Shown: positions 16,988-26,958 of the stretch, in pieces | Position numbering within the stretch: the stretch's first letter is position 1 | Layout of the letters: every line of letters starts with the position of its first letter | Assembly: GCA_002839825.1 (NCBI GenBank) | Contig: PGYU01000001.1 | Span: 526,698-571,465 of the forward strand | Reading direction: 5' to 3' | DNA from: Ignavibacteriae bacterium HGW-Ignavibacteriae-1 | GTDB lineage: Bacteria; Bacteroidota; Ignavibacteria; Kapaibacteriales; UBA2268 | DNA: 44,768 bases | Position numbers and translations under genes: made by a program | The notes under the pieces: model-generated | The model's input: only the letters and a program-made list of their open reading frames with translations | Database searches by the model: none | Told to the model about the DNA's origin: nothing

Positions 16988-17055
16988 TTCAATAAGTGCT
17001 AATTTAATGGAAATTTTGGTCTCAAACAAATTATTTCGTAAATTATATATATAAT

Positions 17056-17464
17056 GAAGAAAGCTGTAAGCCGAATTCTGTCTTCGATTTTGCAATCGGA
17101 GGCAGTCATTTATCTGGAACTAACGTCACCGTCAGCTTCAAGCGGTCTACCCGAATATCGTTGTTACAATCGAGGAAACTTCGACGGCTTACGCCCGATA
17201 TCCCTATTTGACCTTGCTCCGAGCGGGGTTTACCCGACATTGTAGTCACCTGCAATGCCGATAGTGTCTTAATCCTATCTTTTCACCCTTACCTCCATGA
17301 CCTCTCTTACGAGAGCGGATTGGCGGTTATTTTCTGCGGCACTTTCCGTCAACTTTCTCTGATAAATCAAAAATTGTCGCCTTCGTGTTACGAAGCGCTC
17401 TGTTTCCCGGAGTTCGGACTTTCCTCATCGTGCATAATGCACAACGCGACTGCCCGCTTTCCCC
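17056..17464 (-). ncRNA. rnpB: RNase P RNA
   Basis: Catalytic RNA that removes 5' leaders from tRNA precursors. On the minus strand it begins GGGGAAAGCGGGCAGTCGC, contains the universal GAGGAAAGTCCGAACTCC block (about 17409-17426) and the reverse complement of CCTTGCTCCGAGCGGGGTTTACC-type P-helix sequence. It ends with ACAGAATTCGGCTTA followed by GCTTTCTTC, which pairs with the 5' GGGAAAGC to close helix P1. Length of about 409 nt and the features fit bacterial type A. Ends are set from the P1 pairing. It lies between the zinc-ribbon gene and the Hpt gene, on the same strand. Confidence 0.95.
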
Positions 17465-17475
17465 ATTAATATAAA

Positions 17476-24120: not shown

Positions 24121-24540
24121 ATGGTAAAGTTAAGATTAAGAAGAAAAGGGAGAATTCATCATCCCGTTTATGACATCGTTGCAGTAGATTCGAAAGCAAG
24201 ACGCGACGGTGCTTTTTTGGAAAGATTGGGCTACTACGACCCAAACACATCACCTACCACTATCAGTGTTGACCACGACAGAGCTATTTATTGGCTCAGC
24301 GTGGGTGCTCAGCCTACTGACGTGACTGAAAAGCTTTTGAGCTATGATGGTGTTTTGCTTCGCAGAGCAATGTCATTCAAAGACAAACCTCTCGAGGAAA
24401 TCAACGAAGCAGTCGAAAAACATCGCAAGAATGTTCATGACAGATACTTCCGCCAAAAAGACAAAAGGTCACAACGTAAAGCTGCCAAAATCGCAGCAGA
24501 AAAGAAAGCAAAAGAAAAAGCAGCCGAAGGCGCCGAATAA
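24121..24540 (+). CDS. rpsP: 30S ribosomal protein S16
   Basis: Primary-assembly protein of the small subunit. The core MVKLRLRRKGRIHHPVYDIVAVD … DGAFLERLGYYDPNT is canonical. The 139 residues include a Lys/Ala/Glu-rich C-terminal extension (about 100-139) longer than in enteric bacteria, as often in Bacteroidota. The gene sits 96 bases after ffh and ends at a strong terminator. rimM, trmD and rplS, its usual followers, are absent here. Confidence 0.97.
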   Translation: MVKLRLRRKGRIHHPVYDIVAVDSKARRDGAFLERLGYYDPNTSPTTISVDHDRAIYWLSVGAQPTDVTEKLLSYDGVLLRRAMSFKDKPLEEINEAVEKHRKNVHDRYFRQKDKRSQRKAAKIAAEKKAKEKAAEGAE

Positions 24541-24569
24541 TTCTTTCTTTCTCACGAAGAATCAATCAA

Positions 24570-24598
24570 GAAGCTGTCCATATGGGCAGCTTTTTTTG
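24570..24598 (+). terminator. Intrinsic terminator after rpsP
   Basis: AAGCTGTCCAT pairs with ATGGGCAGCTT (one G-U pair), with almost no loop, followed by seven Ts. It closes the ffh-rpsP unit 30 bases after the stop. Confidence 0.9.
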
Positions 24599-24603
24599 TT
24601 GTC

Positions 24604-24780
24604 CTGTCAGTTGTTACAACTGACAGCTTTGGCACATCTGGAATGTAGGGACCGCAACAGCGTTCTGTCCAAAACATAGCCCATGAATTTATTCGTGGGT
24701 AAAGATAAGACCATCCACCCCGTCTGCTGGTGCAGACACCCCGCAAGAGAGGAATTTAAGTCGAAGGACTTAAACTCTTG
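24604..24780. repeat. Row of five hairpins (composite palindromic element)
   Basis: Directly after the rpsP terminator, 177 bases hold five hairpins. H1 24604-24626: CTGTCAGTTG/CAACTGACAG, loop TTA. H2 24649-24670: GGACCGC, loop AACA, GCG, a four-base bulge, GTCC. H3 24680-24699: CCCATGAA/TTCGTGGG with one G-U. H4 24722-24737: GTCTGC/GCAGAC, loop TGGT. H5 24744-24780: CAAGAG, a five-base bulge, TTTAAGTC, loop GAAG, GACTTAAA, CTCTTG. The ACCCCGTCTGC … GCAGACACCCC part resembles an intergenic repeat I know from several Bacteroidota-type genomes, from memory only. Frames crossing the block are side effects of the repeats. It could be a mosaic of REP-type elements or one structured RNA. Confidence 0.75.
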
Positions 24781-24847
24781 TAACATTTCACCCAAAAATA
24801 TGTTATATTTAAAGTTGAATGTATCAAATACAAAAAGAAGCATAATT

Positions 24848-26872
24848 ATGAAAAAAATTATCCTATTTCTATCCATTTTAGCCCTTACCTCTCATAATTC
24901 ATTAGGCATGTGGGAATTATGTACTACTTCTAAATCAGGAAGTATTAATTGTCTTGAGAGTTCCGATGGAATTTTATACGGTGGAACAAGTAACACCACT
25001 TTCATTATTTCTACAAATAAAGGTGTTAGTTGGGAAGTCAAATCGGAAGGATTACCAAACAGAAAAGTTGTTTATGATATAGCGTTACTTAACAATTATA
25101 TTTTCTTGTGTATTGAGGATAAGGGAATATTTCGCTCATCAGACAAGGGTGAGAGTTGGATTGATATGAACAGTTCCATTCCAACCAAATACATTTATTC
25201 TTTTACAACTCATGAAGGTAAATTGTATGCAGGGACATATGATTACGGTGTGATTGTTTCTGAGGATAATGGACATTCTTGGACAGTTTATGATACAGGC
25301 TTTGTTGATTACGGAAGAATTTCTGCTTTAATGATTCATAATGATATAATTTATGCCGGTGCAGAACAAGGAATGTACTCAGCAGATATTGATAATCTTG
25401 AATGGAATCTAATTGGTTTGCTAACTGAAAGGGTCTTGTCATTGGCTGTAAAAGATGAACTTGTCATTGTCGGTACGTATGGGACAGTTTACACTACTAC
25501 TGATAACGGTATAAACTGGCAGAAAGGTGGAATAAATTCGGCTAAAGTAAACGGTATTCAAATATTAAATTCAAGAATTTATGCAGCTACTGATTTTGGT
25601 TTGTTAATATCAGATGATGATGCAATCACGTGGAAATGGCAAAAGACCGGTTGGGCAGACCGTGTAAATGAGACGATACTAATTGTTAATGACGATATAT
25701 ACTTAGCCCAATTAACGGGTACGCTCTACCATTCTTCAGATAGTGGTGATACATGGCGAAACCCTGAATTGAGTACAAATACAATCAGATCAATAGTTGA
25801 AATCAATGGTGAAGTGCTCGCAGGTTCAATGGATAGCGGCATTTTTGCAAGTACAGATAATGGATACACTTGGACAGTGCGAAACAATGGATTAGAAAGC
25901 CTCTATATCACTCAGTTGTTAACTTATAATAATAAGGTTTATGCTTGTACAAATGATGGAATGATTCACATTTCTACCGACAATGGATTTACTTGGCAAA
26001 AAAAGGGAGATGTTGATTCAGGCAAAAGAATTAATTCCATAGTCTCACTTCATGACAACATGTTTGTTGGAGTGGAGGGTGGTGGCATTTGGGGCAGTTA
26101 TGATGAAGGATTGAATTGGATAAAAATCCAAGATTCTTCTTATAAATCGCTCACACACATAATTACTGACGGTGAAAATCTTTATGGCTTTGGGAAAGAC
26201 AATGGATTCTATATTTACAAATCTGAAGATTATGGTTTGAATTGGACTAAAATCAGTTCAGATTTGACAAAAATCAGCACAACCTCGTTTTATATACATG
26301 AAGGTGTAATGTATATGGGTGGATTTGAGAGTGGATTTTATGTGTCCTACGATGAAGGTGAAAGTTGGAAGTTAAGAGATAAGGGTATCGAAGGTTATTA
26401 TATTGGATTGATTAAGTCAATTGGTGGATATTTATTTGCAAACTCTTCCGTGTCAAATGACAATGGAAATACATGGTTCTCAAGATCTGAGGGACTAAGA
26501 AGCGGAGTTCAATGCTTAGTCGAAGTTGGTGATTATGTTTTTGCCGGCACTTACTATGGAGTTTATCGAACATTATTTAAAGATTTAGAAATCACTTCTG
26601 TCAATGAAAATTCAGTGAATGATATAATCTCCGTCTTTCCCAATCCGGCAACGGAATTTATAGAAATCAGTTCTCACACTATCAACCGTAGGGTTGATGA
26701 AATTGCTGAAATAAAAATCTTCAATACTCTTGGTGAGAGTATTATTGAATTGCCAGATGTCCAACATCTTGGAGATGTTGGACATCTACAACGCATTAAT
26801 ATTTCGCATCTCCCTCGTGGTGTGTATTATGTCCGTATGGGTAATCGGACGGAGATGTTTGTGAAGATGTGA
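24848..26872 (+). CDS. Secreted Asp-box beta-propeller protein with T9SS sorting domain
   Basis: A 674-residue exported protein. The ATG at 24848 gives a signal peptide (MKKIILFLSILALTSHNSLG); longer in-frame starts run back through the hairpin block. The body has twelve Asp-box motifs of the S-x-D-x-G-x-x-W type (for example SSDKGESW, SEDNGHSW, STDNGYTW, SYDEGESW), about 40-50 residues apart. This is the pattern of sialidase/YCF48-like propellers, which usually bind rather than cut when catalytic residues are missing. The last 85 residues form a type A sorting domain (VFPNPATEFIEISS … LPRGVYYVRMG). A perfect inverted repeat lies inside this domain (26755-26787). Flanked on both sides by repeats; likely its own unit. 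Confidence 0.87.
   Translation: MKKIILFLSILALTSHNSLGMWELCTTSKSGSINCLESSDGILYGGTSNTTFIISTNKGVSWEVKSEGLPNRKVVYDIALLNNYIFLCIEDKGIFRSSDKGESWIDMNSSIPTKYIYSFTTHEGKLYAGTYDYGVIVSEDNGHSWTVYDTGFVDYGRISALMIHNDIIYAGAEQGMYSADIDNLEWNLIGLLTERVLSLAVKDELVIVGTYGTVYTTTDNGINWQKGGINSAKVNGIQILNSRIYAATDFGLLISDDDAITWKWQKTGWADRVNETILIVNDDIYLAQLTGTLYHSSDSGDTWRNPELSTNTIRSIVEINGEVLAGSMDSGIFASTDNGYTWTVRNNGLESLYITQLLTYNNKVYACTNDGMIHISTDNGFTWQKKGDVDSGKRINSIVSLHDNMFVGVEGGGIWGSYDEGLNWIKIQDSSYKSLTHIITDGENLYGFGKDNGFYIYKSEDYGLNWTKISSDLTKISTTSFYIHEGVMYMGGFESGFYVSYDEGESWKLRDKGIEGYYIGLIKSIGGYLFANSSVSNDNGNTWFSRSEGLRSGVQCLVEVGDYVFAGTYYGVYRTLFKDLEITSVNENSVNDIISVFPNPATEFIEISSHTINRRVDEIAEIKIFNTLGESIIELPDVQHLGDVGHLQRINISHLPRGVYYVRMGNRTEMFVKM
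26755..26787 (+). repeat. Perfect inverted repeat within a sorting-domain coding region
   Basis: AGATGTCCAACATCT and AGATGTTGGACATCT are exact 15-bp inverted copies separated by TGG. Each arm is itself a 6-3-6 palindrome. The 33 bases stay in frame and encode PDVQHLGDVGHL, placed between a strand and the terminal LPRGVYYVRMG of the T9SS tail. This resembles coding-region palindromic elements such as those of Rickettsia. Confidence 0.85.
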
Positions 26873-26879
26873 CAGATGA

Positions 26880-26958
26880 AGACTTCGGAAGTCTAATTTT
26901 CTAAAGTATATGAATAAAATAAGCTTCTTGAAGTTAATTATAAAGACTTCCGAAGTCT
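26880..26958. repeat. Inverted repeat pair AGACTTC(G/C)GAAGTCT
   Basis: AGACTTCGGAAGTCT (26880-26894) and its exact reverse complement AGACTTCCGAAGTCT (26944-26958) flank 49 AT-rich bases. Each copy can also fold alone (six pairs, three-base loop). The first lies eight bases after the propeller gene's stop and is followed by AATTTTCT, so it may serve as a weak terminator. Confidence 0.7.

Follow-up and report, generated by a model that had tools for sequence, protein, structure and literature searches.

A 177-base block of closely spaced stem-loops downstream of rpsP in Ignavibacteriae bacterium HGW-Ignavibacteriae-1 combines, in a mosaic, members of at least four families of dispersed palindromic repeats; we call these families D, A, B and C. 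Very probably, the mosaic accumulated behind the rpsP terminator, and module B is the REP of a subclass 1.2 HuH/Y1 transposase found in relatives. Because one kind of palindrome in the block adjoins a small transposase gene in relatives and is common to distant bacteria, debris of mobile DNA, rather than a new RNA, is the most likely account of the block. As an object the mosaic is ordinary: it requires no role of its own, and no function of rpsP or its neighbour is needed to explain it. What is new here is one link, apparent from sequence comparison, between a subclass 1.2 transposase and REPs that carry the tag ATAG. The window analyzed is a stretch of 44,768 nucleotides from the 3.2-Mb, 43-contig assembly of this bacterium (G000); G001 and G002 are congeners.

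Table 1. The block and its surroundings, in window positions.
Feature	Position	Strand	Description
rpsP (ribosomal protein S16)	24121-24540	+	upstream host gene, outside the element; orthologues by PF00886
rpsP intrinsic terminator (stem-loop and T-run)	24568-24598	+	conserved in G001 and G002
Hairpin 1	24604-24626		inverted repeat; fold -12.8 kcal/mol
Module D	24604-24626		palindrome CTGTCAGTTGTTACAACTGACAG
Remnant of a further palindrome, GGCACATCTGG...	24627-24643		fuller at L006 and L008; read by eye
Module A	24644-24671	+	GTAG foot 24645-24648 and imperfect palindrome; model R3, 44.2 bits
Hairpin 2	24645-24670		bulged; fold -6.0 kcal/mol
Module B	24671-24702	+	ATAG foot 24676-24679; model R1, 56.3 bits
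Module B stem	24680-24687 pairing with 24692-24699	+	8 bp
Hairpin 3	24680-24699		with G-U pair; fold -9.3 kcal/mol
Module C	24713-24760	+	model R2, 68.3 bits; family spread over the phylum
Hairpin 4	24722-24737		inverted repeat; fold -8.7 kcal/mol
Hairpin 5	24744-24780		5-base bulge; fold -12.6 kcal/mol
C-tail fold-back	24752-24780		right part of hairpin 5
Downstream gene	24848-26872	+	beta-propeller-like (BNR/sortilin-type matches), T9SS C-terminal sorting domain; host gene, outside the element

Piecewise folding of the block returned the five stem-loops that the initial annotation had described, each where it had been placed, with bulges in hairpins 2 and 5 and a G-U pair in hairpin 3. The block begins about six bases past the T-run that follows the terminator stem-loop (24568-24595), again as annotated, and the short frames across it look as meaningless as had been said. 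An inverted-repeat scan recovered hairpins 1 and 4 and, within hairpin 5, the interval 24752-24777. Folded alone, the block reaches -59.0 kcal/mol, whereas its shuffles average -42.4; the z is -3.9, and none of 200 shuffles is equally stable. A z of -6.7 belongs to a stretch that takes in the rpsP terminator besides the block. The minus strand gives a z of -2.8, with 3 of 200 shuffles as stable. The further claim that hairpin density far exceeds chance was too strong. A simple count (perfect stem of at least 6, loop of 2-9) finds four in the block against a shuffle mean of 1.8, and four also occur in 22 of 252 tiles of the window; since 28 of 500 shuffles equal the block's count, density alone is weak evidence. 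What lies beyond chance is the recurrence of the block in the genome, not its hairpin number: a search with the block and short flanks gave 53 matches in the own genome, the block itself counted. The simple count would suit chance pairing, but that explanation is refuted by this recurrence and by the compensatory changes described below, and we give it practically no weight.

The modules differ in their distribution. The D core GTCAGnTGTnACAnCTGAC, with at most one mismatch, occurs at 30 places in the window's own genome, at 26 and 39 in the congeners and at 1 in G021; it had no match in G033 or G020, and a backwards-pattern control gave none. A model of B, applied to 60 genomes with the own genome counted and at most 120 candidates scored in each, places B at no fewer than 62 sites in the own genome, 42 in G001, 80 in G002, 57 in G033, 5 in G018, 4 in G021 and 1 in G032, and at none in the other 53. 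Module C reads, in order, CCACCCCG, a first hairpin (hairpin 4 of the block), CACCCC, a second hairpin that is degenerate here, and GGAATT. Hairpin 5 looks as if it had originated from C followed by an inverted C tail minus five bases; no such fold-back was noticed in the remaining listed copies of C.

Modules A, B and C frequently follow one another head to tail, forming all or part of an A-B-C unit; D and the GGCACATCTGG remnant are separate families. In 39 stretches of the own genome (81 kb) chosen around matches, the models find B at 60 places, A at 22 and C at 14. Arrangement was counted for 55 of these B places, the other five (L178 979+, L179 1007-, L197 1240-, L185 972- and L182 1032-) being dropped as weak or opposite-strand readings. 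B stands alone at 31 places, in A-B at 11, in B-C at 7 and in A-B-C at 6, with gaps of -2 to 0 bases between A and B and of 9-20 (one of 52) between B and C. A tandem at G000:C17:14868-15180 consists of one B-C and two A-B-C units, with 118 bases from B to B. In BIMEs, REPs alternate in orientation at regular spacing within composite clusters. Several of the named loci contain B pairs that face opposite ways, some 25-50 bases apart; the block in the window is a mosaic with A, B and C on one strand and a single B. Module B is extragenic: only one of the 55 copies falls inside an open reading frame of at least 120 aa, though such frames make up 68% of the same stretches.

The palindromes are kept by compensatory change. 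Across 46 distinct B sequences, 98.6% of cells are paired and 31 are two-sided, adjacent pairs having changed jointly from AA/TT to GT/AC in 15 sequences, and none of 500 shuffles reaches the covariation score. Because the pattern that gathered these sequences fixed the foot and the outer stem, only the inner pairs are independent evidence; the ATAG foot is constant or nearly so in all 46, the gathering pattern itself having contained ATAG. For C, a search across the phylum supplied 30 loci with 58 distinct sequences, and these show 46 two-sided cells over 7 pairs, in an alignment fitted to the model; again, 0 of 500 shuffles match this. One stem pair of D, left free in the pattern, varies among T-A, G-C and A-T in exact own-genome matches, and some congener copies break it.

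Module B is, in sum, a short palindrome with many copies, extragenic and with compensatory changes, as REPs are. The initial annotation had likened part of the block to a widespread intergenic repeat and had offered a composite REP mosaic or a new structured RNA as alternatives, with second copies in the genome and covariation among its checks. The likeness agrees with the dispersed palindromes and with the extragenic position of B, and the mosaic is borne out by the dispersal of D, A, B and C, by covariation, by extragenic B and by the Y1 transposase near B in relatives. The 53 genomic matches supply second copies, and the stem changes contradict an absence of covariation. A novel RNA built of five conserved hairpins, whether cis-regulatory or a small RNA, would account for several consecutive hairpins and for the covariation of B and C, but that covariation is the covariation of dispersed repeats and not of an orthologous site. 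All three modules occur together in only 6 of the 55 B copies, with varying partners and in differing combinations at unrelated sites, and no other copy was seen to have hairpin 5. Rfam, searched over the whole window, gave no match to the block at gathering scores. We reject a structured RNA, which is scarcely credible, because the modules are dispersed and recombining. The window's only Rfam match at gathering scores is a bacterial class A RNase P RNA (17051-17465, minus strand; 251 bits).

The surroundings of the block point the same way as its composition. Past the rpsP stop codon, the first 58-63 bases, which include the terminator, align with those of G001 and G002 at 91-94% identity. 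BLAST found the block absent behind rpsP in both congeners and in 9 further loci (at most 700 bases each; 387 in G001), so that either this lineage gained the block or others lost it, gain being the likelier. The gene after rpsP in G002 differs from that in the window and the G001 contig ends there, so no clean empty site or target duplication can be read. These comparisons also bear on a role of the block as RNA, either as a back-up bidirectional terminator or as a 3'-end stabilizer for rpsP or the next gene, maintained for that purpose. Such a role would suit a block that adjoins a terminator and folds better than its shuffles; some own copies likewise lie behind terminator-like hairpins (L018, L022 and L030, by eye), and REPs that stop transcription or stabilize mRNA are reported in PMC3733652. 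It is nonetheless improbable, given that rpsP lacks a block match in G001, G002 and the 9 other loci over the lengths searched and that a terminator scan of 24500-24900 showed the rpsP terminator only. The longest listed reading frame, 24683-26872, opens at an ATG within module B; the downstream gene likely starts at ATG 24848, with a stretch resembling a signal peptide after it. Automatic annotation runs the risk of giving genes such repeat-derived N-terminal extensions.

The case that B is a REP draws on a transposase gene that accompanies it in relatives. Of the same 60 genomes, 30 (own genome counted) contain matches to Y1_Tnp (PF01797), and among the 30 returned loci scanned (L058-L087) only the genes on contig C14 of G002 and contig C14 of G021 are flanked by B. 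Both lie between inverted B copies, 56 and 90 bases away in G002 and 61 and 57 bases away in G021; a further Y1 gene, on C25 of G002, lies some 2 kb from an A-B-C type unit, without one at its edge. With the G002 protein as query against 54 genomes (E up to 1e-12), the search gave the G021 homologue at 61% identity and the next at 48%. G001 holds a 38-aa remnant, 97% identical to the G002 protein, with B upstream. This family-wide search found no matching subclass 1.2 transposase in the own genome, so mobility in the window's genome rests on the relatives.

A wider set of B-linked genes came from tblastn in 80 named loci chosen for carrying B. Eight genes were found at 57-66% identity, and in all eight the nearest B is 36-74 bases off. 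In five Flavobacterium genes B was found only downstream and in the L283 gene only upstream; the L246 gene has B on both sides, the nearest two copies on the same strand, and the L250 gene has inverted B on both sides. A Y1/HuH gene between two inverted B copies was seen only in G002, G021 and L250. The gene is open in G002, has a stop in G021 and is a stump in G001, and a stop is present in 3 of 10 aligned B-linked genes. In a tree, the B-linked genes do not form one supported clade, and a single origin is neither proven nor excluded. Several of these genes (L102, about 1715-1735; likewise L202, L250 and L283) have a second short palindrome, of the AAACCRTTTTAAYGGTTT type, between their start codon and B, near the likely ribosome site; it may regulate its transposase gene.

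The G002 protein (146 aa; PF01797 88.3 bits) contains DHIH, VWQ and YIQNQKQHH. Y---Q--HH is present in 27 of 27 class-1-like rows, and the first His motif varies, being EHVH, EHIH, DHCH, DHLH or DHTH in some. Judged by these motifs, the B-linked proteins carry the TnpA_Y1 subclass 1.2 signature, DH[IV]H or close variants plus Y---Q--HH. They resemble the subclass 1.2 of PMC6006769 (Quentin et al. 2018), for which DH[IV]H, WQ and Y---Q--HH are given with about 148 aa, in their motifs, in a length of about 146 aa, in Bacteroidetes hosts and in low copy number. They differ from it in being flanked by genome-dispersed palindromes, whereas Table 1 of that paper enters REP 'no' for subclass 1.2.

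Rather than belonging to a REP system, module B could be the hairpin at the end of a conventional IS200/IS605 insertion sequence, with the scattered copies as its deleted remnants. NCBIfam gives the G002 protein as an IS200/IS605 transposase at 65.7 bits (cut-off 55), and its REP-associated transposase model scores 30.8, below its cut-off of 80. In IS200/IS605 elements, the guide lies on the same strand in both end hairpins. The nearest two B copies at L246 do share one strand, but an inverted pair flanks each of the genes of G002, G021 and L250. G002 moreover has one such gene, its other two homologues being 36% and 28% identical, against 80 copies of B. Subclass 1.2 is described in PMC6006769 as close kin of the IS200 transposases, a point in favour of an insertion sequence, but the Y motif of the B-linked proteins is Y---Q--HH and not the Y[IV]ENQ that the same paper gives for subclass 1.1. 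On this evidence, an insertion-sequence end is unlikely, and we continue to read B as a REP.

Other members of the family also have inverted flanking repeats. Flanks of 300 bases (less at contig ends) were compared for 30 of 41 listed homologues, the G002 query included. An inverted shared flank repeat scores 14 or more in 21 of the 30 and 13 in one; eight, the G001 stump among them, have no repeat of 12 or more. Among 410 control windows, taken from own-genome sorting-domain and rpsP loci and so not throughout from the same genomes as the homologues, none reaches 14 and 10 reach 12. By eye, some 15 of these 21 elements are palindromic, and the others look like plain terminal repeats. A sister pair is provided by the G076 gene, whose product is 48% identical to the G002 protein and which lies between GAATAGCCACTA...TAGTGG palindromes. 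This pattern, counted in 54 genomes on both strands together with up to 2 mismatches, has 109 matches in G075, 39 in G077, 34 in G021, 33 in G023, 23 in G076, 2 in G017 and 1 in G005, with 0 in the other 47 and 0 for the backwards pattern. Read from the transposase flank, the G076 palindrome has an ATAG foot as B does. Because this dispersed palindrome shares the foot of B, we tie an ATAG-tagged class of REPs to TnpA_Y1 subclass 1.2, a link that is one of sequence association and in which cleavage and transposition would be the expected activities. As regards co-evolution of REP and transposase, two pairs have been taken to genome-wide counts, and in these the 48% identical transposase goes with a different ATAG palindrome. 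In the open-licence PMC literature, we found no tie of subclass 1.2 to REPs and no description of these repeats.

The closest known system is that of REPs or BIMEs with a RAYT (the REPtron) in Escherichia coli, Pseudomonas and Stenotrophomonas, as presented in parts of PMC2817692, PMC3733652 and PMC8266576. Like those REPs, B is a palindrome of 20-40 bases preceded by four unpaired bases on its 5' side. Its copies number in the tens, are extragenic, form clusters and show two-sided compensatory changes in the stem; an HuH/Y1 gene lies beside or between copies, and orphan copies stand where the gene is lost. Unlike them, B has the tag ATAG, as against GTAG or the variants named in PMC3733652; its linked proteins have the subclass 1.2 motif Y---Q--HH in place of the class 2 Y---NP type; and it mixes head to tail with modules A and C.

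By analogy with these systems, a mechanism can be proposed. REP transposase TnpA is described in PMC8266576 as recognizing the single-stranded REP, with the tetranucleotide 5' of the hairpin helping to choose the cut. A subclass 1.2 TnpA would similarly bind the single-stranded B hairpin, cut at B with ATAG as guide and rejoin B elsewhere, mainly in intergenic gaps, so that B spreads. In the own genome, B would now be an orphan or fossil (62 copies, no gene), the transposase having decayed in one congener (G001) and not having been found in the window's assembly. The link between subclass 1.2 and B makes the activity of that subclass directly testable with one protein and short oligonucleotides.

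Module B reaches well beyond these genomes. The exact 26-base B pattern matched at least 103 stretches in a collection of named genomes. By title, the 80 loci among the matches listed comprise 36 from Flavobacterium or Flavobacteriaceae, 20 otherwise unclassified Bacteroidetes, 9 Saprospiraceae, 5 Chitinophagales and kin, 2 Ignavibacteria and 8 from one Desulfobulbaceae bin. The last, CROMO_A_116, carries B at L242, L255, L258, L259, L267, L288, L296 and L297 among the matches listed; cross-phylum transfer or a binning error (mis-binned Bacteroidota) may be responsible. REP-like repeats in Flavobacterium are not new as such, since PMC12306157 tabulates thousands of REP candidates for two Flavobacterium genomes, the families being unnamed in that passage. 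These distributions invite a bolder reading, possible though in our judgment rather more apt to be wrong than right: subclass 1.2 would spread ATAG REPs, with B nearly unchanged across classes of Bacteroidota and perhaps beyond, seeding A-B-C units, and other palindromes would have become in-frame loops of T9SS domains. The link itself joins a subclass listed without REPs to one particular palindrome that is dispersed, and a second pair supports it. It would take REP systems to the branch beside the IS200 transposases, intermediate between insertion sequences and REP transposases that have been domesticated. One REP sequence is, moreover, common to several bacterial classes, where PMC2817692 describes REPs as species-specific.

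Module C has its own history throughout the phylum. When 15 candidates were scored in each genome, it was found in 55 of 395 genomes of the phylum, in 30 of 171 genera. It is a Bacteroidota-wide two-hairpin repeat of the form CCACCCCG-variable stem-CACCCCTC(C)-loop-(G)GAGGGGAATT (L208-L237), whose first stem covaries. No transposase was found for A or D, and a profile of homologues run against the reading frames of 30 C loci returned none for C. In this respect C is like the CGTC-tagged REPs, for which PMC3733652 reports occurrence in Chlorobi and Bacteroidetes but no dedicated transposase. Module C also has CCCGTC before its first hairpin and often GCCA after. It differs from them in that the stem of its first hairpin is mostly about 4-6 bp, as against 8-9, with the tag partly paired, and in having a second fixed hairpin within the framework CCACCCCG...CACCCCTC...GAGGGGAATT. 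Module C does not belong with the CGTC REPs as defined by a CGTC tag, an 8-9 bp stem and a CCA tail.

Other palindromes keep company with other Y1 genes. The only Y1_Tnp match of the own genome, L058, was considered as a source of B and rejected: its motifs are THFH and YIHQNP, it is subclass 2.6-like, and it sits between AGACTTCCGAAGTCT palindromes. AGACTTC(G/C)GAAGTCT-type palindromes lie on both sides of L058, and two occur in the window after the downstream gene (26880-26894 and 26944-26958). A second subclass 2.6-like transposase, at L101 3112-3684 (G021:C14), lies between ATTCATCCGATGACT...-type palindromes, a further copy of which is in frame inside the gene itself. PMC6006769 notes Bacteroidetes subclass 2.6 genes flanked by atypical structures with copies elsewhere.

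T9SS C-terminal sorting domains also hold in-frame palindromes, by eye at two loop positions, as in AACCTTCCGAAGGTTTCGAACCTTCGGAAGGTT, read KPSEGFEPSEGS, and TGTAGAGACACGGCATGCCGTGTCTCTACA, read VETRHAVSLQ. They are present in 14 of 80 and 3 of 30 own-genome sorting domains (of 150 scored matches) and in the window's own downstream gene at 26755-26787, against 0 of 79 equal-length stretches just upstream of sorting domains. Part of this recurrence could come from shuffling of domain copies between genes. Being read in frame inside genes, they are like the intragenic Rickettsia palindromic elements mentioned in PMC3733652; they differ in lying in T9SS sorting domains and in having other sequences. 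We also considered C or the A-B-C unit as an in-frame part of T9SS genes and discarded the idea: because L169, L199, L103 and L035 are open for only 25-64 aa, they look like gene remnants beside the unit. In G001, a different palindrome lies in frame within a 457-aa frame at L032.
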